Shown here: piece after piece, positions 9,792 to 18,367 of the stretch | Position numbering within the stretch: the stretch's first letter is position 1 | Layout: every line of letters begins with the position of its first letter | Notes under the pieces: model-generated | What the model was told of the DNA's origin: nothing | Database searches by the model: none | Seen by the model: the letters and a program-made list of their open reading frames with translations, nothing else | Made by a program: the position numbers and the translations under genes | NCBI RefSeq assembly: GCF_000612545.2 | Contig: NZ_CP097800.1 | Coordinates: 2,663,001-2,727,000, forward strand | Reading direction: 5' to 3' | Origin: Streptomyces sp. PCS3-D2 | Lineage (GTDB): Bacteria; Actinomycetota; Actinomycetes; Streptomycetales; Streptomycetaceae | Length of the DNA stretch: 64,000 nucleotides

Positions 9792-10970
9792 TCAGTAGAC
9801 CGGCTTCTCGGGCTCGATCTGGTGGACCCAGCCGATGACGCCACCGCCGACGTGCACCGCGTCGGCGAAGCCCGCCGACTTCAGGACCGCCAGGACTTCC
9901 GCACTGCGGACACCCGTCTTGCAGTGCAAGACGATGCGCTTGTCCTGGGGCAGGTCCTGGAGGGCCGTGCCCATCAGGAACTCGCCCTTGGGGATCAGCT
10001 TCGCGCCGGGGATCGAGACGATCTCGTACTCGTTGACCTCGCGGACGTCGATGATCTCGATCAGCTCGTCGCCGTCGATCCACTCCTTGAGCTGCTTCGG
10101 AGTGATCGTGGAGCCGGCGGCCGCCTCCTGGGCCTCTTCCGAGACCACGCCGCAGAAGGCCTCGTAGTCGATGAGCTCCTTGACCGTCGCGTTCGGGCCG
10201 CAGACCGCGCAGTCGGGGTCCTTGCGGACCTTGACCTGGCGGTACTGCATCTCCAGGGCGTCGTAGATCATCAAGCGGCCGACCAGCGGCTCGCCGACAC
10301 CGGTGAGGACCTTGATGGCCTCGGTGACCTGGATGGAGCCGATGGACGCGCAGAGCACGCCGAGGACGCCGCCCTCGGCGCAGCTGGGCACCATGCCCGG
10401 CGGCGGGGGCTCCGGGTAGAGGCAGCGGTAGCAGGGGCCGTGCTCGGACCAGAAGACCGAGGCCTGGCCGTCGAAGCGGTAGATCGAACCCCAGACGTAC
10501 GGCTTGTTCAGCAGCACGCAGGCGTCGTTGACGAGGTAGCGCGTGGCGAAGTTGTCCGTGCCGTCGACGATCAGGTCGTACTGGCTGAAGATCTCCATCA
10601 CGTTCTCGGCTTCGAGCCGCTCTTCGTGGAGGACCACGTTCACGTACGGGTTGATGCCCAGCACGCTGTCGCGGGCGGACTCGGCCTTGGAGCGGCCGAT
10701 GTCCGACTGGCTGTGGATGATCTGGCGCTGCAGGTTCGACTCGTCGACCTCGTCGAACTCCACGATGCCCAGCGTGCCCACGCCGGCCGCGGCCAGGTAC
10801 ATGAGGGCGGGCGAGCCGAGGCCGCCCGCGCCCACGGCCAGCACCTTGGCGTTCTTCAGGCGCTTCTGACCGTCCATCCCGACATCCGGGATGATCAGGT
10901 GGCGGGAGTACCGACGGACCTCGTCAACGGTGAGCTCAGCAGCCGGCTCGACCAGGGGTGGCAGCGACAC
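9792..10970 (-). CDS. moeZ: MoeZ: adenylyltransferase/sulfurtransferase (MoeB-type plus rhodanese domain)
   Basis: The product has 392 residues, the family length. The GTG at 10970 has GGAG at 10976-10979 and gives the expected N terminus SLPPLVEPA. The N-terminal E1-like domain has the nucleotide loop GAGGLGSP, the DESNLQRQIIH segment and two zinc-binding CxxC pairs (CYRC, CAVC). The C-terminal rhodanese domain has the persulfide Cys in LHCKTGVRSAEV. In actinobacteria MoeZ adenylates and then thiocarboxylates sulfur-carrier proteins such as MoaD, ThiS and CysO-like partners for molybdopterin, thiamine and cysteine or secondary-metabolite sulfur supply. It starts 62 bases after the spherulin-like gene ends, on the same strand, so some read-through is possible. 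Confidence 0.95.
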   Translation of the reverse strand: MSLPPLVEPAAELTVDEVRRYSRHLIIPDVGMDGQKRLKNAKVLAVGAGGLGSPALMYLAAAGVGTLGIVEFDEVDESNLQRQIIHSQSDIGRSKAESARDSVLGINPYVNVVLHEERLEAENVMEIFSQYDLIVDGTDNFATRYLVNDACVLLNKPYVWGSIYRFDGQASVFWSEHGPCYRCLYPEPPPPGMVPSCAEGGVLGVLCASIGSIQVTEAIKVLTGVGEPLVGRLMIYDALEMQYRQVKVRKDPDCAVCGPNATVKELIDYEAFCGVVSEEAQEAAAGSTITPKQLKEWIDGDELIEIIDVREVNEYEIVSIPGAKLIPKGEFLMGTALQDLPQDKRIVLHCKTGVRSAEVLAVLKSAGFADAVHVGGGVIGWVHQIEPEKPVY

Positions 10971-11032
10971 GGGGACTCCGTAGATGTGACGACTTAACGG
11001 TGGTTCTCTCCGTAACACTGCCACGCCCGTCT

Positions 11033-11788
11033 TCATTCCAAGACACCTGTTCCGATACGTGAGACGATTTCGTCCCAGTAGCCGGGCATCGAGGCCCACG
11101 GGTCGCGGTCCCCGACGGCGCGCCGGTCGGTGAACCAGATCGTGCCGGCGCCCTGCCAGCGGGCGATCCGCATCGCCTCTTCCAGATGAGTGCGCGGGAC
11201 TCCGTGGACCAGGTGGCAGAACCGCTCCGGCGGGTACTCCGCCGTCCACTCCGCCACCTGCGACCAGCGGTAGTCGGTCCAGGCCCCGGAGAAGGTGACC
11301 AGCTGGTCGGCGGCCTCCGCGTAGCCCGCGTACGGGTGGGTGCCGTGGCCGAGGACGATCCGCAGGTCCTCGCCCAGGCTCCGCAGGGCGTCGACGACCC
11401 GGCGCACCGCGTCCAGGTCCGCCTTGTCGGCCGGGGCCTCGGCGAGGTAGAAGCCGCCGACGCCGTACCAGTCGCGGAAGCGGTGGGCGTCGGAGACCAG
11501 CTCACCGAAGGACCGCGCCCCGTCCCGCATCGCGAGATGGCCCAGGACCGTGCCGCCCGCGCGGTGCAGCTTGGCGGCCGCTTCGGTGCAGTGCGGGTCG
11601 GGCCGGCCTCCCGGGCCGTCCGTGACGTTCAGCACGGCCCAGTGCAGCGGGGTGCCCGGGCGGGTCAGCTCGGCCCACTCGACGGGGGCGAGCAGCGGGT
11701 GGGCGTAGCCGGGGATGCCCAGCCCGAGACGGCCCGCACCGGTCGCGGCTGCCGTCAGGGCGCCGGGCGGAGTGGTCAGATGCGGCAC
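11033..11788 (-). CDS. Spherulation-specific family 4 (spherulin-4) type glycoside hydrolase-like protein
   Basis: About 251 residues. The GTG at 11788 is preceded by GGAGG at 11793-11797, and the coding region overlaps the end of the epimerase gene by 13 bases, which suggests coupling. The sequence has the spherulin-4 pattern: LGIPGYAHPLL at the N terminus, VLNVTDGPGGRPDP, GYV-like GHLAMRDGARS, WYGVGGFYLAEAP (acidic residues of a TIM-barrel active site) and ERFCHLVHGV. Characterised relatives (Aspergillus Sph3 and Ega3) cleave galactosaminogalactan, a polymer close to bacterial Pel. No signal peptide is visible with this start, unlike most such hydrolases. It may act inside the cell or be exported by another route. 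Function is inferred from family and context. Confidence 0.8.
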   Translation of the reverse strand: MPHLTTPPGALTAAATGAGRLGLGIPGYAHPLLAPVEWAELTRPGTPLHWAVLNVTDGPGGRPDPHCTEAAAKLHRAGGTVLGHLAMRDGARSFGELVSDAHRFRDWYGVGGFYLAEAPADKADLDAVRRVVDALRSLGEDLRIVLGHGTHPYAGYAEAADQLVTFSGAWTDYRWSQVAEWTAEYPPERFCHLVHGVPRTHLEEAMRIARWQGAGTIWFTDRRAVGDRDPWASMPGYWDEIVSRIGTGVLE

Positions 11789-12786
11789 GCCGCCTCCATC
11801 CAGATGTCCGCGAGGGACTCTTCCAGGCCGATCCGGGGCCGCCAGCCGAGCCGGTCGCGGGCGGTTCGCACGTCCGCCTGCTGCCAGGCTCCGCATCCGT
11901 CCGGGTAGGGATACGACTGGGGAGCCGCTGCGGCCATCTGCTCGGCAGTGGCCTCGGAGCGGGGGCTCCCGATGGAGGCGAGCCCGGCCGGGCGGCCGGG
12001 GTGCCCGTGCGCCTGTTGGGAACCGCCGTGCGGCACGTCCAGCTCGTGCAGGGCTCCTCCGTAGCCGGCGACCCGTGCCAGGACGGCGGCCGCGTCGCGC
12101 AGCCGGACGGCACGGCCGGTGCCGATGTTGACCACGCCCTGGGCGGCGGACAGGGATGCCGCGTGCACGGCCCGCGCGACGTCCCGTACGTCGACGAAGT
12201 CGCGCTGCACGCCGAGCCCGCCGAGCTTGAGCTCGCCGTCGCCGGACTGCATCGCCCGGCGCATGGCCTCGGCCAGTCGGCCCAACGGGGATCCGGCAGG
12301 GGTGCCCGGGCCGACGGGCGAGAAGATCCGCAGCACGACGGCGTCCAGACCGGAGCCGAGCACCAGCTCGGTGGCGGCCAGTTTGCTGACGCCGTACGGT
12401 CCGCCGGGTCTCGGGACGGCGTCCTCGGCAGTGGAGGACCCCGGCTGGCTGGGCCCGTACTCGGCGGCGCAGCCGAGCTGTACGAGCCGGGCCCCGCAGC
12501 CGCTGCGGCGGAGTGACTCGCAGATCGTCGCGACGGCGACGGTGTTGTGCCGGGTGAGCTCGCGGGCCCCGCCCCGGGTCGCTCCGGCGCAGTTGATGAC
12601 GACGCCCGGGTGGACGGCGTCGAGGAAGCGGGTGAGCGCTCCGGGGCTACCGGTGGCGAGGTCGAAGCGGACGTCGGCGTCGTCGCCGCGGCCGAGTGCG
12701 GTGAGCTGCACGGCCGGGTCGGCGAGCAGCCGGTCGGCGACGTAGCGGCCGAGGTATCCGTTGGCTCCGATCAGCAGCACCCTCAT
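11776..12786 (-). CDS. NAD-dependent epimerase/dehydratase (extended SDR, nucleotide-sugar type)
   Basis: The product has 336 residues from ATG 12786. It shows the Rossmann dinucleotide loop GANGYLGRYV at the N terminus, a DVRFDLATG segment, VINCAGATRGG, the catalytic YGVSK (Tyr-x-x-x-Lys), and the substrate-side motif RDFVDVRDVARAV. These are typical of UDP-sugar C4-epimerases and dTDP-4-keto-sugar reductases. It sits between a membrane-protein gene (131-base gap) and the spherulin-4 gene (13-base overlap), downstream of a PelF-like glycosyltransferase. It is therefore a good candidate for supplying the sugar nucleotide that the glycosyltransferase uses, for example a UDP-GlcNAc/GalNAc epimerase. 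The exact substrate is inference. Confidence 0.85.
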   Translation of the reverse strand: MRVLLIGANGYLGRYVADRLLADPAVQLTALGRGDDADVRFDLATGSPGALTRFLDAVHPGVVINCAGATRGGARELTRHNTVAVATICESLRRSGCGARLVQLGCAAEYGPSQPGSSTAEDAVPRPGGPYGVSKLAATELVLGSGLDAVVLRIFSPVGPGTPAGSPLGRLAEAMRRAMQSGDGELKLGGLGVQRDFVDVRDVARAVHAASLSAAQGVVNIGTGRAVRLRDAAAVLARVAGYGGALHELDVPHGGSQQAHGHPGRPAGLASIGSPRSEATAEQMAAAAPQSYPYPDGCGAWQQADVRTARDRLGWRPRIGLEESLADIWMEAACRI

Positions 12787-12917
12787 CGCGCGACCCCTTG
12801 GTCGGTTGGCTGGCCGGTCATGTCTGTTTCTCCTTGCGGACGTGTGGATGGACGGGGCGGGGTACAGGCTGAGTGCCTCGGCGCCGGCTCCGAAGGGCTG
12901 TGGTGGTCCCGGGGGCG

Positions 12918-13895
12918 TCAGGTCCTCGCGTGCGCGCAGGCGCGGGACAGGGCGAGGACGGTGTGTACGAGGAGGGCGGCCGCGGCGGCGGTGGCCGCCG
13001 CCGGAGCCGGGACCAGAGCGACGGCGAGTGCGGCGGCGACGGGCCCCGGGCGGGTTCCGTGCCGAAGCTGGAGCCTGGTCAGGAAGAGCAGCAGGGCGAG
13101 CGGCACGGCCGCCGCGAGCGGTGTCCCGGCCAGGACCGCGGCCCCCGCGGCGGCCCCGGTGAAGACGCCGACGGACGCCAGCAGCAGGGGGCGCGCCCGG
13201 GCCGCGAAGTCCTCCAGGGCGCGGCTCCCGCCGAGCCGGGTCCGGGCCCCGGCGGCGAAGGCCGCAGCGAGCAGGTGCCCGGGGGCGACGGCCAGTGCGA
13301 GGCAGACCGCGAGGGCGGTGCCGTACCGGTACACGGCCCAGCCGGCGACGGCGGCGGCGAGCAGGTGCGCGAGCCAGGGGACGCGGCTTCCGGCGGCCCG
13401 CCCCGGCCACACCAGGGCGGCGACGATGGCGGCCACGGCGGCGGGCCCGGCCCATGCCTGGCCCGCACCGGCCGCGGCCGCGGCGAGGGCCCCGGGCAGC
13501 AGCGCGCAGCCGAACCGGCGGAAGGCGGACGGCCCGGCCGGGACCAGGGCCGGCGCGGCGGCGGGCGCCTCCCCGCGCGGGCTGCGGGCGTACAGCTCCT
13601 CGGCGAGGGAGAAGACGTCGCGGTGCCGGAAGCGGGCGGCGGTGCGGTCGGTGATGCCGTGCGCCTCCAGCCCGGCGGCGATCTCCAGCGGGTCCACGGC
13701 CCGCTCGCACAGCTCGCGGTGCCGGTGCAGCAGGGCCTTGACCGGATCCCCCGCGGCCCGCCGGCGGGCCTGGCCGGCGACCGGCGACGGCAAGGGTGCG
13801 GCCGGGACCGGGGCGTCGGGGCCGGGCGTCTCGGTGCGGACGGCCTCGGGGGCGACGGCTTCGGGGGCGACGGCTTCGGGGTCGACGGTGGTCAT
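12918..13895 (-). CDS. Ala-rich multipass membrane protein of the PelF-like locus
   Basis: The product has 325 residues. The ATG at 13895 overlaps the stop of the glycosyltransferase gene in an ATGA junction, so translation is probably coupled. Residues 1-40 are Pro/Ala-rich and begin with three copies of a five-residue unit (EAVAP). A soluble segment follows with a helical motif (RHRELCERAVDPLEIAAGL and ITDRTAARFRHRDVFSLAEELYAR). The last about 200 residues form around eight hydrophobic Ala/Leu/Val-rich segments. I do not recognise the family. By position it could help export or polymerise the product of the neighbouring glycosyltransferase, taking the place of PelE/PelG-type membrane proteins, but no sequence motif proves this. 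Confidence 0.75.
   Translation of the reverse strand: MTTVDPEAVAPEAVAPEAVRTETPGPDAPVPAAPLPSPVAGQARRRAAGDPVKALLHRHRELCERAVDPLEIAAGLEAHGITDRTAARFRHRDVFSLAEELYARSPRGEAPAAAPALVPAGPSAFRRFGCALLPGALAAAAAGAGQAWAGPAAVAAIVAALVWPGRAAGSRVPWLAHLLAAAVAGWAVYRYGTALAVCLALAVAPGHLLAAAFAAGARTRLGGSRALEDFAARARPLLLASVGVFTGAAAGAAVLAGTPLAAAVPLALLLFLTRLQLRHGTRPGPVAAALAVALVPAPAAATAAAAALLVHTVLALSRACAHART
13843..13887. repeat. Three 15-bp tandem repeats coding for EAVAP units
   Basis: Three near-identical 15-base units (13843-13857, 13858-13872, 13873-13887) lie at the 5' end of the membrane-protein gene on the minus strand. They encode a repeated five-residue unit in the disordered N terminus. Confidence 0.8.
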
Positions 13896-15520
13896 ACGGC
13901 GGCCTCCGCGGTCGGTTCCGGTGCGGGCTTCGCCCAGGTCGGGCTGGTCCAGTGCCCGGGTACCCGCGCCTCCGGGGGGCGGGCGAAGGGGACGCCGCCG
14001 TCGGGCCGTTCGGAACCCCTGGCGAGCAGCCGCAGGTAGATCTCCTGGAAGGCGGTGACGTTCTGCTCGACGGTGAACAGCTCCAGGGCCCGTGCCCGGG
14101 CGGCGGCTCCCAGGCGCTCCGCCCGCTCGGCGTCCCCGAGCAGGGACAGACAGGCTTCGGCGAGCGCCTTCGGGTTGCGCGGCGGGACGACCAGCCCGGT
14201 ACCTCCGATGACCTCGCGGACCGCGCCCACGTCGGTGGAGACGGTGGCGCGCCCGCAGAGCATCGCCTCGGCCAGGGCGAGGGGGAAGCCCTCGATCACG
14301 GAGGACAGCACGACGATCCGCCCGGCGCCGTAGGCCTCGGCCGTGGAAGGTGCCTCCGGTCCGCCGATCTGCTCGAAGGCGACCGGGTTCTCCCCGACGG
14401 TGACGCGGTCCGCGGCCTCATCGGGGAACAGCTGCGCGGCGAGGCTAAGGCAGTCGGCGAGGTAGCCGGGGTCCGCGGCCGTGGCGAAGATCCGCAGGCG
14501 GGTGCCCGGCTCGGCCCTTCTGATCTCGGCGAAGGCGTGCAGCAGTGCGATCAGGTCCTTGGCGGGCTCCACCCGGCCCACCCACACGAGCGTGTGGGGG
14601 TCCCCGCAGTCGGCGGACTCCCCCACGGTGGCGAATCGGTCCGCCTCCATCCCCGGGTAGACGGTCCGCAGCCGGTCACGGGTCGCGCCGCAGCGCTCCT
14701 GCCAGCGCCGGGCGTGAGCGTTGCCGGGGGTCAGGAAGTCGGCCCGGGCGTAGATCTCGCAGGCCAGCCGCAGGTGGAAGGCGGCGCGCAGGGCCCGTAC
14801 CGCGGGGCGGGGCTCCTCGCCCCCGCCCGCGCCGAGGTGGGACAGGTAGTGGGCGCGCAGCTGGACTCCGTACTCGGTGACCAGCAGCGGGACTCCGAAG
14901 AAGCGTTTGGCCAGTAGACCGGGGAGCGCCGCCACCCCACCCGCGCCGGCGTGGCAGACGTCGACGGCGCCGAGGCCCTCGCCCCGGGCGTCCTCCTCGT
15001 ACCAGTCGAGGGACAGCGGGCGCAGCATGCGCTCCAGTTCGTCCACGAACTCCAGCAGGTCCGCCACCTGGGCGACCTGCACGGTGCGACTCGCGCCCGG
15101 GGCCCGACAGGCGGCCTCCAGTGCCCGCACCGCGGACTCGGAGCGCAATGCCGCATACAGCCCGCCCTGTTCGCGGGCGAGGCCGGCGAGACCGTACAGA
15201 CCGGTGGCGAAGGGCTCCGGCGCGCCGGAGCAGACCCCGTGGACCAGTTGCTGGAAGCAGTCGGTGAACCGGCGGCGCTCACGCCGGGAGTAGCTGCGCC
15301 CGTCGTCGGCGGGGGCCCACAGGGGGGCCGTGCGGACGTGGGTGACGTGCTCGGGCAGCGGGACCCGGGCGCGCTCCTGCTCGGCGCTGCGGCTCAGCGC
15401 GTAGAGCTCGAACTCGTGCTGCGGGAGTCCGCGCACGAGCCGGTCGCACCACGGCGCGGCCTCGCCCGTGGCATACGGATAACCACCTTCTGTGAGCAGT
15501 CCGATCCGCACGAGCGGCAC
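13892..15520 (-). CDS. PelF-like GT4 glycosyltransferase with DUF3492 domain
   Basis: About 542 residues from GTG 15520, which has GGGAG at 15528-15532; an alternative GTG lies at 15511. The N-terminal half matches DUF3492 (EGGYPYATGEAAPWCDRLVR, then a CHAGAGG segment and VTEYGVQLRAHYL). The C-terminal half is a GT-B fold domain: WVGRVEPAKDL, SSVIEGFPLALAEAM with the E-x7-E signature, then DVGAVREV and GLVVPP. PelF adds N-acetylhexosamine units to the cationic exopolysaccharide Pel from UDP-sugars in the cytosol. This gene heads a run of four: glycosyltransferase, membrane protein, SDR epimerase and spherulin-4 hydrolase. Other Pel genes (pelA/B/C/D/G) are not in the window, so the polymer may differ from Pel. 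Confidence 0.88.
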   Translation of the reverse strand: MPLVRIGLLTEGGYPYATGEAAPWCDRLVRGLPQHEFELYALSRSAEQERARVPLPEHVTHVRTAPLWAPADDGRSYSRRERRRFTDCFQQLVHGVCSGAPEPFATGLYGLAGLAREQGGLYAALRSESAVRALEAACRAPGASRTVQVAQVADLLEFVDELERMLRPLSLDWYEEDARGEGLGAVDVCHAGAGGVAALPGLLAKRFFGVPLLVTEYGVQLRAHYLSHLGAGGGEEPRPAVRALRAAFHLRLACEIYARADFLTPGNAHARRWQERCGATRDRLRTVYPGMEADRFATVGESADCGDPHTLVWVGRVEPAKDLIALLHAFAEIRRAEPGTRLRIFATAADPGYLADCLSLAAQLFPDEAADRVTVGENPVAFEQIGGPEAPSTAEAYGAGRIVVLSSVIEGFPLALAEAMLCGRATVSTDVGAVREVIGGTGLVVPPRNPKALAEACLSLLGDAERAERLGAAARARALELFTVEQNVTAFQEIYLRLLARGSERPDGGVPFARPPEARVPGHWTSPTWAKPAPEPTAEAAV

Positions 15521-15923
15521 CCCCGATCTCCCGTTCAGGCGGTCGCCGTCGGTCAGGCGACCCGCTGCGGGAGAACTCAAGCGGATGGACCGGAGGCGCG
15601 ACGGACGGTTGTCCGTCGCGCCACCGGAAGGGGTGAAGAGTCGTAACTTTCCCGTACGGTTCGCGTTCGAGCACGCTAGAAGTACAGCCTCGGACGGCCT
15701 TGCGCCCGGCGGGGGCGAGGAGCTTCCGGCGCTACCGGATCCGGTGTCCGGCCGGCTCCGGATCCAGGGTGTACCGGGACGGGGGTCACGTGTCGGGGGG
15801 AGAGGGGGCGCCGCGCGGTCGGCCGGTGTCGGCGCCGAAGGATGTCGGCCACGCCGGGGCGGCCGCACCGCGGTGAGCGGACGCCGTGCCGGGGCGGCCG
15901 CCACCCGCCCACCGGGCTCCGGG
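15521..15923. promoter_or_regulatory. Leader/promoter region of the PelF-like operon
   Basis: This 403-base gap lies between the end of the DUF3152 gene and the start of the PelF-like gene, both on the minus strand. It holds no plausible gene. It contains the strong inverted repeat at 15595-15622 and must carry the promoter of the polysaccharide-like operon. I could not assign reliable -35/-10 boxes. Confidence 0.45.
15595..15622. promoter_or_regulatory. Perfect 12-bp inverted repeat upstream of the PelF-like gene
   Basis: GGCGCGACGGAC at 15595-15606 is exactly mirrored at 15611-15622 around a GGTT centre, 75 bases upstream of the chosen start. It could be a regulator-binding palindrome, a leader hairpin (attenuator), or a late terminator for the upstream DUF3152 gene. 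No T-tract follows it on the minus strand, which weakens the simple terminator reading. Confidence 0.5.
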
Positions 15924-17366
15924 TCAGTTCCCCGGGAACGCCCAGGGGTTGGGCTTGCACTCGATGCCGTTGATGTTGAGGGACTTGGTCTGCTGCTGCA
16001 TGACCGGGGCGAGGGCGCCGGGGGTGCGGCAGTTGACGTGGCCGTTGCCGAGCCGGTGGCCGACCTCGTGGTTGATGAGCATCTGGCGGTAGGCGGCCAT
16101 CTGGTCCGGACCGTAGGTCTCGGAGCCCTGGGCCCACCGGAAGGCGTTGATCATCACGCGCTCGGTCTGGGCCGAGTCGCAGGAGACGTTGCCGACGACG
16201 GTGTCGAGGTTGGACTTGGCGCACCAGACCCCGGTGGTGCCGGGGCTGGCCAGGGTGATCACGAAGTCGGACTCGCCGCCTGGCACCCGCTCGAAGGTCT
16301 TCGTACCGCCGTGGCCCCAGCTCCGGTCGTCGTTGAGGGTGCGGTGGACGGCCTCGGCGAAGAACATCGGGTCCAGGCCCAGGCCCTGCTCGACGTCGAC
16401 GCGATAGCGCACCACCCTGCCCTTGCCGGGAGCCTTGGCCACCCCGGGCACGGTGTCGAAGGTGCCGGGACCGGTGAGTTTCGGATCGATGGGGAGCTGC
16501 GCGGCCAGCTGCTGCTCGTACGTCAGCTCGGGCGCGGGAGCGTCGGCCGACGGCGCGACGGGGGCGGCCACGCCGCCGTTCGGGGTGGGCCGGCCGTCCG
16601 AGCGGGACGCGGCCGTGTCGCTGCGGTCCTTGCCGGTGGCGGTGGGCGCGCCGGCCCTGGTCTCGTCGGCGTCCGGGTCGAGGAACCCCTGGCCGGCGAC
16701 GACCACCGCGAGGACGGTGGTGACCGCGGCCGCTGCCATGCCGGTGTAGGCGAGGGCCTTCTTGCCGCGGCCGGAGGCGGGCCGCTCCTCGACCGGATCG
16801 GCCGGCACCCGGGGGCCGGGCACGAGGCGGTGCGGGCCGGCCGAGGTGACGGGGGCCGGCCCGGGCGCGGTCGCGGGCTCGGACGCACGGGGAGCCGGCT
16901 CTTCGAGCGTGACCTGCGGGAAGCCCACCGCGGGCGTGCCGAAGGCCGGGGTGTCGTAGTCCCTCGGGGTGGCGGGGGACCCGGCCCGTGCCGCGGGGGC
17001 GGGACGGTCGCCGGAGCGCGGGCGGGGTACGCCCCGCCAGTCCCCGTACACGGAGTCGGGTCCGACGCCGGGGGCGCCGCCCTCGTACTGCTGGGGGTGG
17101 CCGCCGGCCCGCGCACCGTCGGCGGGCCGGTCCTGGGCCACGTATCCGTGGTGGGTGACGGTCGACTCGGGCCACCCGGCGAACGGGTCGCGGCCGCCGA
17201 AGCCGTCGCCGCCCGGGACGTCGTTGCCGAACGCGTCGTAGGCGTACCCGCCCCCGTCCCCGTGCCCGTCGGGATCCGGCTGCGCCTGCGGGCGCACCGC
17301 GGCAGGCGCCGGCGCCGGAACGGACTCCGGAGCGGGCGCCCCGGATTTTCGACTGTGTCGTCCCAC
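15924..17366 (-). CDS. Membrane-anchored DUF3152 protein with metzincin-like zinc site
   Basis: About 480 residues from GTG 17366, six bases after the hydrolase stop codon, so the two are probably one operon. Residues 1-240 are Pro/Gly/Ala-rich and look disordered. One membrane segment follows (ALAYTGMAAAAVTTVLAVVVAG). The C-terminal about 200 residues match DUF3152. They contain HEVGHRLGNGH, a full HExxHxxGxxH zinc-protease motif, with a downstream Met in APVMQQQT that could be the metzincin Met-turn. The topology (single N-terminal helix) puts this domain outside the membrane. The M. tuberculosis relative is Rv3207c, which is also beside moeB1 and a TetR gene. Peptidase activity is suggested by motif but, as far as I know, not shown. 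Confidence 0.85.
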   Translation of the reverse strand: MGRHSRKSGAPAPESVPAPAPAAVRPQAQPDPDGHGDGGGYAYDAFGNDVPGGDGFGGRDPFAGWPESTVTHHGYVAQDRPADGARAGGHPQQYEGGAPGVGPDSVYGDWRGVPRPRSGDRPAPAARAGSPATPRDYDTPAFGTPAVGFPQVTLEEPAPRASEPATAPGPAPVTSAGPHRLVPGPRVPADPVEERPASGRGKKALAYTGMAAAAVTTVLAVVVAGQGFLDPDADETRAGAPTATGKDRSDTAASRSDGRPTPNGGVAAPVAPSADAPAPELTYEQQLAAQLPIDPKLTGPGTFDTVPGVAKAPGKGRVVRYRVDVEQGLGLDPMFFAEAVHRTLNDDRSWGHGGTKTFERVPGGESDFVITLASPGTTGVWCAKSNLDTVVGNVSCDSAQTERVMINAFRWAQGSETYGPDQMAAYRQMLINHEVGHRLGNGHVNCRTPGALAPVMQQQTKSLNINGIECKPNPWAFPGN

Positions 17367-17371
17367 GGCTC

Positions 17372-18367
17372 TCAGCCCCTGCCGTCTTCGGTGTCCCGGT
17401 CCGCAGCCCCCGCGCCGGTGTCGCGCAGCAGCTCCGTGAAGGCGGCGGCCACCACCTCGGGGTACTCCATCATCGCCACGTGCCCGGCCTCGGGCAGGCT
17501 CAGCAGCCGCGAACCGCGGAAGGCGGCGGCGGCCTTGTGCGCCATACGGTACGAGACCAGCTGGTCCCGGCCGCCGTAGACCAGCAGGGTCGGGGCGAGC
17601 ACCCGCTGTGCCTGCCGCCACAGTCCGTGCTGGCCGCCGAGGGTGTAGGCGTCGACGATGCCGCGCGAGGTGCGGGTCATCACGTCCCAGAAGTACGGGA
17701 GCGCCATCCGGCGCTCCATCTCCTCGACGGCGTTGCGGAACCCTTCGGGAGTCACCCGGGAGGGGTCTCCGTAGCAGAGGTCCGTCACCCCCCGGGTGCG
17801 CTGTTCGGCGCTGAGACCCCGGGTCATCCGGCTGAAGAGCCCGGCCACCCCCGGCAGGGCCAGGAGGGCGGTCGGCACGGCCGACCGCTGCACGCGCAGC
17901 TCGGGAAGGGCGGGTGAGACGAGCGTCAGGGTGCGGACGAGGTCGGGACGGACGGCCGCGACCCGGGTGGAGACGGCGCCGCCGAGGGAGTTCCCGAAGA
18001 GGTGGACCGGCCCGCGCCCGGCGGCGTCGAGGTGGCGGATGACGGCGCGGGCGAACGCGGTGACGGAGTAGTCGCGGTCGGCGGACGGCGGGGACCAGCC
18101 GAAGCCGGGCAGGTCCACCGCCTCCGCGTCGACGGTGTCCGCCAGCTGCTCCATGAGCGCCGACCAGTTCTGCGAGGAGCCGCCCAGGCCGTGCACGAAG
18201 AGGGCGGGCGGCAGGCCGTCACGCCGGGGCGGGCGGACCCGGACGGCCAGTTCCAGCCCGGGCAGCGCGGCGGTGCGCAGCTGCTCCCCGTCGGCCAGCC
18301 GGACCGCTCCGGCGGGGGAGGACGGTTCGGCGCTGGACCGCACGCCCGGCAGCTCGGTCGAAGACAT
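17372..18367 (-). CDS. Alpha/beta-fold hydrolase
   Basis: The product has 331 residues. The classic elements are FVHGLGGSSQNW (oxyanion hole), FGNSLGG (nucleophile elbow, Ser in G-N-S-L-G), YGGRDQLVS (acid) and EAGHVAMMEYP (His). The length and cap region fit the epoxide hydrolase/haloperoxidase-like group. No signal peptide is present, so it is probably cytosolic. It lies directly upstream of the DUF3152 gene with a 5-base gap and is divergent from a small acidic protein gene. The substrate is unknown. Confidence 0.88.
   Translation of the reverse strand: MSSTELPGVRSSAEPSSPAGAVRLADGEQLRTAALPGLELAVRVRPPRRDGLPPALFVHGLGGSSQNWSALMEQLADTVDAEAVDLPGFGWSPPSADRDYSVTAFARAVIRHLDAAGRGPVHLFGNSLGGAVSTRVAAVRPDLVRTLTLVSPALPELRVQRSAVPTALLALPGVAGLFSRMTRGLSAEQRTRGVTDLCYGDPSRVTPEGFRNAVEEMERRMALPYFWDVMTRTSRGIVDAYTLGGQHGLWRQAQRVLAPTLLVYGGRDQLVSYRMAHKAAAAFRGSRLLSLPEAGHVAMMEYPEVVAAAFTELLRDTGAGAADRDTEDGRG

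Follow-up and report, generated by a model that had tools for sequence, protein, structure and literature searches.

The galactosaminogalactan (GAG) gene cluster of Aspergillus was reportedly described by Bamford in 2015. The complete bacterial counterpart is known in outline from the description of operons around the CE18 deacetylase gene agd3, these operons being described with a cytoplasmic glycosyltransferase (GT), a multi-spanning membrane protein, a GH114 protein and, in some Actinobacteria, a spherulin-4 protein (Bamford 2020, PMC7229062). A further related system is the Gram-positive pelDEADAFG operon, in which a PelF-type GT lies beside a multi-spanning membrane protein (Whitfield 2020, PMC7112168). 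Here we analyse a stretch of 64,000 bp from Streptomyces sp. PCS3-D2, referred to as the window. Four genes of its minus strand, situated between moeZ and a DUF3152 gene, encode a PelF-type GT, a membrane protein, an extended short-chain dehydrogenase/reductase (SDR) and a spherulin-4 protein (Sph). We call cassettes of this kind compact and clusters that contain agd3 complete. As originally predicted, the four genes are co-directional, with an ATGA overlap at 13892-13895 (GT and membrane gene) and an overlap of 13 bases at 11776-11788 (SDR and Sph gene).

With the agd3 operons and the Aspergillus cluster the cassette shares a homologous spherulin-4 protein, a GT and a multi-spanning membrane protein; in contrast to them it lacks the genes for the CE18 protein, the GH114 protein, a dehydratase and a nucleotidyltransferase, its Sph is devoid of the catalytic residues and its membrane protein is shortened. 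The pairing of a PelF-type GT with a multi-spanning membrane protein is also common to the cassette and the pelDEADAFG operon, whereas the cassette has no PelA, PelD or PelE gene, its membrane protein has no family match, its SDR is a separate protein and its barrel is of the Sph3 type instead of the PelA type. On balance we favour the view that the cassette descends from a complete GAG-type operon which lay between moeZ and the DUF3152 gene in an ancestor of the Streptomycetaceae, and that it now forms a membrane-anchored assembly around the SDR.

Complete clusters were collected with an alignment of ten Sph relatives, which yielded 548 encoding stretches in genome contigs; 80 loci were kept. 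By tblastn, 30 of the 80 loci have the arrangement agd3-GT-membrane-sph-GH114 with no SDR of their own, and 29 have the arrangement agd3-GT-membrane-legB-nucleotidyltransferase-SDR-sph-GH114; the remainder are variants or are cut by contig ends. Some loci (e.g. the one listed both as L053 and as L109) are counted twice here and in the counts of Sph N-termini, membrane protein lengths and upstream elements given below. Named carriers of either arrangement include Streptomyces, Actinomadura, Longimycelium, Crossiella and Demequina. The GH114 protein was recognized in all three loci tested (271-285 bits), the agd3-like (CE18-like) proteins match Pfam Agd3 below its cut-off (best E value 2.8e-05, in L088), and for the CE18-like protein of L051 phmmer finds no solved relative up to an E value of 1. 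On the LegB model (cut-off 475) the dehydratase of L053 reaches 451.5. Since a LegB-type dehydratase, a nucleotidyltransferase and an SDR belong to the complete clusters L052, L053, L088-L090, L092, L093, L098 and L102, these clusters may, judging by gene content, make a 6-deoxy amino sugar and not plain GalNAc.

The locus that connects both kinds is L078, found in genome G260 of another genus of the family: agd3-GT-membrane-legB-nucleotidyltransferase-SDR-sph-GH114-moeZ, that is, a complete cluster directly beside moeZ. A maximum likelihood tree of the GTs (quick method, midpoint root) was calculated from 83 of 128 rows, 45 being left out as short or above the set maxima. In this tree the 42 compact GTs form one group with a support of 99 in the Shimodaira–Hasegawa-like approximate likelihood ratio test (SH-aLRT), L078 is their sister (99), and 40 complete-cluster rows lie on the other side. 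Given the complete cluster of L078 next to moeZ and the sister position of its GT to all compact GTs, gene order and phylogeny make the compact cassette look like the reduced form of a cluster once complete at the moeZ site. By tblastn, neither a CE18 deacetylase nor a GH114 gene was found in the 47 compact loci, and both are absent from the cassette of the window.

The Sph of the window (11033..11788, minus strand, 251 aa) matches PF12138 with 75.9 bits (cut-off 30.2), and its AlphaFold model (pLDDT 91.2) has a TM-score of 0.78 to the Sph3 structure 5d6t. It is thus a GH135-like protein of the Sph3-type fold and does not fall outside the Sph3 family. In the profile alignment the nucleophile and the acid/base of Sph3 fall at the motifs FFD and VVFE, whose spacing of 56 residues fits Asp166 and Glu222. 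D166A has been used as a catalytically inactive form of Sph3 (PMC8546845); another paper names Glu222 as catalytic and prints the aspartate as 196, which we take for a slip (PMC12054363). In the window both acids are lost: the places of Asp166 and Glu222 are taken by Ala116 (codon 11441..11443, minus strand) and Ser167 (codon 11288..11290, minus strand), and in contrast to Aspergillus Sph3 (GH135) the protein also has neither a signal peptide nor a membrane anchor. The glutamate is kept in none of 43 compact Sph, the aspartate in 34 of 43. Among 89 copies from complete clusters, the aspartate is present in 86/86 and the glutamate in 85/86 scorable rows (one with Asp at its place); three rows (L138, L157, L182) without letters at the catalytic sites were not scored, and rows with identical cores were dropped. 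Both acids are likewise kept in the Sph of L078 and in all eight relatives that have no recognised cluster.

In the compact proteins the glutamate column varies (2.17 bits; only 26 of the 242 columns vary more), and the columns flanking it are invariant in 43/43 (Q, L, V, G, W, Y, R); a part of these differs from the complete clusters. Judged by sequence, the compact Sph is a barrel kept under constraint, with a gap where the catalytic acid should be. An active hydrolase was rejected, given the absence of the acid/base glutamate from all compact copies; from the prediction of a spherulin-4 hydrolase the fold and the family stand, and the hydrolase does not. These losses bear on the idea that the cassette is an active minimal aminosugar-polymer system with PelF as the polymerase, the membrane protein as the exporter, an epimerase as the source of the precursor and Sph as the trimming enzyme. 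We regard this idea as very unlikely: the Sph3 fold and the conserved synteny speak for it, and against it stand the lost active site, the missing deacetylase and GH114 genes and the presence of a second cluster with an intact Sph elsewhere in the same genome.

Sph had been said to have no visible signal peptide, and rightly so. Judged by one measure, a hydrophobic N-terminus is found in none of 29 compact and none of 96 complete-cluster rows, and in three of eight other Sph. Lacking such an N-terminus, the Sph of compact and complete clusters appears to be cytosolic, which suggests that GH135 acts inside the cell in actinobacterial GAG-type clusters. In L055, L058, L051 and other complete clusters several of the neighbouring GH114 proteins look lipoprotein-like by eye, the Sph being without a hydrophobic N-terminus. 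The genome of the window also has a third spherulin-4 gene (L096:6920-7915, near 6.89 Mb), which encodes both catalytic acids and an N-terminus resembling a signal peptide by eye.

For the membrane protein (12918..13895, minus strand, 325 aa), neither Pfam nor NCBIfam gives a match up to an E value of 1. Profile and fold searches link it to a full-length relative with a MOP-type fold of 12 helices, and an unrelated family was for this reason rejected. By profile alignment, about 120 residues, the stretch of the four helices TM2-TM5, are missing from 42 of 43 compact membrane proteins; rows below 290 aa as well as L152 and L070 were left out of this count. The window protein accordingly does not have the 12 helices of the MOP fold. 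Eight helices, as predicted, result from the alignment to the 12-helix relative, and hydropathy finds only five strong segments. Compared with the MOP superfamily (MATE, WzxE, MurJ), the full-length relative shares the fold, whereas the window protein is without TM2-TM5, and short and long forms both carry an additional N-terminal helical domain. This domain (residues 50-108, DPVKALLHRHRELCERAVDPLEIAAGLEAHG...LYARSPR) is strongly conserved in the compact proteins and present in the long form; one more clear copy is encoded in the same genome, within the second cluster. PelG is a member of the MOP superfamily. A MOP-like full-length relative, as would be expected of a PelG-type exporter, favours an active polymer system, and the four missing helices oppose it. 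PelA, PelD, PelE and PelG were not named by Pfam and NCBIfam scans of the four cassette proteins and three neighbours; the membrane protein may nevertheless act in the manner of PelG.

The SDR (11776..12786, minus strand, 336 aa) matches PF01370 with 129.1 bits. Its best solved relative is the GDP-6-deoxy-D-lyxo-4-hexulose reductase 2pk3 (75.9 bits), and the highest-scoring entry that bears the name UDP-glucose 4-epimerase, 4zrm, reaches 49.9 bits. The serine of the catalytic triad was placed by reference to GalE. At this place cysteine is found in 34 of 46 compact SDRs, the tyrosine being kept in 45 and the lysine in all 46; the window SDR has Cys with Tyr and Lys kept, and in complete clusters the serine is present in 44/44. 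The window SDR therefore does not show the Ser/Thr-Tyr-Lys triad of a UDP-hexosamine 4-epimerase of the PelX/GalE type. The annotation as an SDR nucleotide-sugar epimerase holds for the family, 'epimerase' being a name derived from the fold: a plain PelX-type enzyme was rejected, as GDP-4-keto-6-deoxyhexose reductases outscore the epimerases, and the exchanged serine also counts against an active polymer system. A non-catalytic SDR partner would have a precedent, since the SDR (epimerase) domains that PelD bears in streptococci, clostridia and actinobacteria are reported to be apparently without catalytic activity (Whitfield 2020, PMC7112168).

The GT (13892..15520, minus strand, 542 aa, GTG start) proved to be a PelF-type GT4 enzyme with DUF3492, as foreseen: it matches PF11997 (DUF3492) with 103.9 bits (cut-off 23.3) next to GT4 domains, and the PelF model NF038011 with 106.2 bits, barely above the cut-off of 100, four complete-cluster GTs scoring 162-173. 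Its EX7E and donor-site Arg/Lys motifs are intact. Together with the passed PelF threshold this speaks for an active polymer system; kin of the cassette without these motifs or without the GT argue the opposite. Of 42 compact GTs, 27, among them that of the window, retain the arginine, the lysine and both EX7E glutamates; in the complete-cluster rows each of these residues is present in 85/85. In the GTs of genera g96, g97, g104 and g107 the arginine, the lysine and the first glutamate are replaced in 11/11 rows, and some motif residues are also lost in L070 and in two Streptomyces (L047, L050). On the PelF model one of three motif-less GTs scores 57.3 bits, and two have no match at an E value of 1e-14 or better.

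Window-type Sph was found in 35 of 37 Streptomyces genomes (this one and 36 others), the other two having a paralogue only (37 and 42%). A PF12138 search of 197 class genomes misses the Sph of the window itself, and its negative results were disregarded for window-type Sph. In a sample of 150 genomes of the family, window-type Sph lies within 3 kb of the membrane gene in 35 of 38 Streptomyces; in the other three (G203, G329, G344; L063-L065) GT-membrane-SDR-moeZ is retained and Sph absent. Among 20 Streptomyces loci fetched, all have GT, Sph and moeZ matches in cassette order, and 19 have membrane and SDR matches between GT and Sph. The membrane match is partial in L039; in L049, which contains runs of N, the SDR is a fragment and no membrane match was found. 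The predicted co-conservation across Streptomyces holds, except for the Sph missing from three of the 38 genomes and from several other genera: GT-membrane-SDR-moeZ without Sph is the arrangement of the loci fetched from g96, g97, g104, g105, g107 and g109. Membrane-SDR-moeZ remains in L076, where the GT is gone, and SDR-Sph-moeZ in L108 (Mangrovactinospora gilvigrisea), where the GT and membrane genes are gone. The SDR is the sole member present in every compact locus fetched, as the fragment mentioned in L049. A literature search for the tentative gene numbers SCO5179-SCO5182 returned no paper.

Downstream of the cassette lies moeZ (9792..10976, minus strand; adenylyltransferase/sulfurtransferase, NF005902, 748 bits), upstream the DUF3152 gene (15924..17621, minus strand, the coordinates being those of the longest open frame; PF11350, 176.1 bits). 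In six of 60 class genomes searched for both (G054, G057, G058, G080, G081, G099) the two genes are on the same strand and less than 200 bp apart, with no room for a cassette. Because they lie so close together in these genomes, the cassette probably entered an ancestral moeZ-DUF3152 neighbourhood, in line with the insertion proposed before. In four further class genomes (G059, G061, G084, G102) the gap is 1.9 to 2.9 kb, and other genes may occupy it. In genus g107 (L066-L069) no DUF3152 gene was found by tblastn (80 bits) between the GT gene and an alpha/beta hydrolase gene; it is there in some other genera.

A second possible explanation is plain decay, i.e. a dying operon that is retained by chance beside moeZ and has lost its function. 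We consider this improbable. The losses do differ by lineage, several catalytic sites are gone, Sph or GT is absent in some genera, and the membrane gene of G258 has an in-frame stop. Against decay, the ratio of nonsynonymous to synonymous substitutions (dN/dS; Nei-Gojobori, a rough measure in very GC-rich genomes) is below 1 for the genes compared in 12/12 locus pairs, at 0.01-0.74 where the alignment is adequate. For the window and L031 it is 0.09 for the SDR, 0.24 for Sph, 0.30 for the GT, 0.43 for the membrane protein and 0.09 for moeZ; in most pairs the SDR value is near that of moeZ. Even the motif-less GTs give 0.20-0.50 (g96, g104, g107). Two membrane pairs of about 20 codons were not used. 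Also against decay, no stops occur in the listed matches of window-type Sph (35/38 Streptomyces) or of the membrane gene (38/38), some of which are partial or in two pieces, the residues around the lost glutamate are invariant in 43/43 Sph, and an upstream element is kept across genera.

This element (15592..15647, minus strand) consists of GTTACG, the core TTCACCCCTTCCGGTGG (15621-15637) and an inverted repeat (15592-15625). The element is non-coding. Where 330 bases or more lie upstream, 24 of 26 compact loci have its core, TTCAC-C-TT--GGTGG (L067 and L087 do not), as do L078 and L108. The core was found in 0/96 complete-cluster loci elsewhere, some of whose stretches end short of the upstream side of agd3. 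A longer form of the element matches once per genome in 6/6 genomes, reversed-pattern controls giving zero. The inverted repeat surrounds GGACAACCGTCC in 16 of 29 rows, and its four innermost pairs never vary. The element folds well as RNA (z -4.66); an RNA was not called, as a DNA inverted repeat explains the fold equally. No Rfam model matches at gathering score in the window, and five are below threshold in the stretch. TTCACC is like part of a PHO unit; a PHO, GlnR or AfsQ1 box was rejected by eye, as the spacing described in PMC6988585 did not lead to another such unit. A few sigma-factor and BldD patterns had two scattered matches only in the upstream stretches.

Another interpretation takes the cassette for a conserved pseudoenzyme module: the SDR, a shortened flippase, a dead Sph and, in several genera, a dead GT would form a regulatory or scaffolding complex without a role in polymer formation. 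We see this as possible and rather doubtful. The same tentative standing applies to its further element, that this complex is placed under one unique upstream element conserved across the Streptomycetaceae.

The cassette could also help an agd3-pelF-mem-sph-GH114 cluster in trans, the SDR making a precursor or the pseudo-Sph tuning the machinery. The genome of the window contains a second cluster (L051, about 5.545-5.552 Mb) with an agd3-like gene, PelF, a MOP-type membrane protein, Sph with intact acids and GH114. It belongs to the 30 of 80 loci without an SDR of their own, and no close LegB relative is encoded in this genome (best 38% identity), which speaks for help in trans. The odds are lowered by the cassette's persistence where the Sph of the other cluster is not seen: of the 35 Streptomyces carrying window-type Sph, 12 or more show no second Sph match (Sph alone surveyed). 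Complete clusters in other families, too, are without moeZ-linked genes within the stretches examined, and we have little belief in this explanation.

For the descent from a complete operon that we favour, the following course may be proposed. The genes for the deacetylase, GH114, the dehydratase and the nucleotidyltransferase would have been lost from the ancestral operon, the membrane protein would have lost TM2-TM5, Sph its catalytic acid, and the SDR would have exchanged its serine in most copies. Polymer synthesis and export by the cassette would thereby have ended, the remaining genes staying under purifying selection with their own upstream element. A putative cytoplasmic assembly would have been built around the SDR, with the shortened MOP protein as its membrane anchor and the Sph barrel as a non-catalytic subunit, perhaps binding a glycan or a partner. 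In most Streptomyces sampled, this genome too, a competent PelF-type GT may transfer sugar to an acceptor, either a lipid or a protein, or make a short glycan at the inner face of the membrane. Since catalytic parts have been lost and evolution yet preserves the cassette, it may do a new job. Of the minimal, distinct aminosugar-polymer system suggested originally, the kinship to such systems is supported by the homologies, and a working minimal system is contradicted by the lost Sph glutamate and the four missing helices; an aminosugar specificity of the cassette is putative only. Literature searches, the only ones made on this point, found no link to aerial growth or spores. Neither a moeZ-linked degenerate cassette nor Sph pseudoenzymes in such operons are described in the literature searched, subscription journals being mostly outside it.

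Several observations weigh against this interpretation. The complete ancestral state beside moeZ is represented by one locus, L078, whose CE18-like gene is weak in Pfam (only CBM87, E value 0.058). The serine is retained in 12 of 46 compact SDRs, and an SDR with cysteine in its place might stay active. The aspartate is still present in the 34 of 43 compact Sph counted above, and a retaining hydrolase without its acid/base can still act on substrates with good leaving groups (e.g. myrosinase). L039, a compact locus, has a membrane protein with a long landmark distance. The motifs of the window GT are intact, so the cassette may still have a catalytic glycan role. Finally, the roughness of the dN/dS values, the stop in the membrane gene of G258 and the absence of Sph (several genera, three Streptomyces), of the GT (L076) or of GT and membrane gene (L108) also leave room for slow decay.

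For the annotation of these organisms the difference matters: by homology, annotation as an operon of PelF, epimerase and hydrolase would lead one to expect an aminosugar polymer in almost all Streptomyces, an expectation better placed on the other, complete cluster where a genome has one. As the Sph of actinobacterial GAG-type clusters has no signal peptide, it may be asked separately if trimming by GH135 is intracellular in them. The moeZ-linked module itself is found in graded stages, from complete (L078) through hydrolase-dead and GT-dead to GT-less, on which the take-over of a biosynthetic operon to serve a different end may be tested; genera can also be compared within the set as to what Sph and PelF do.

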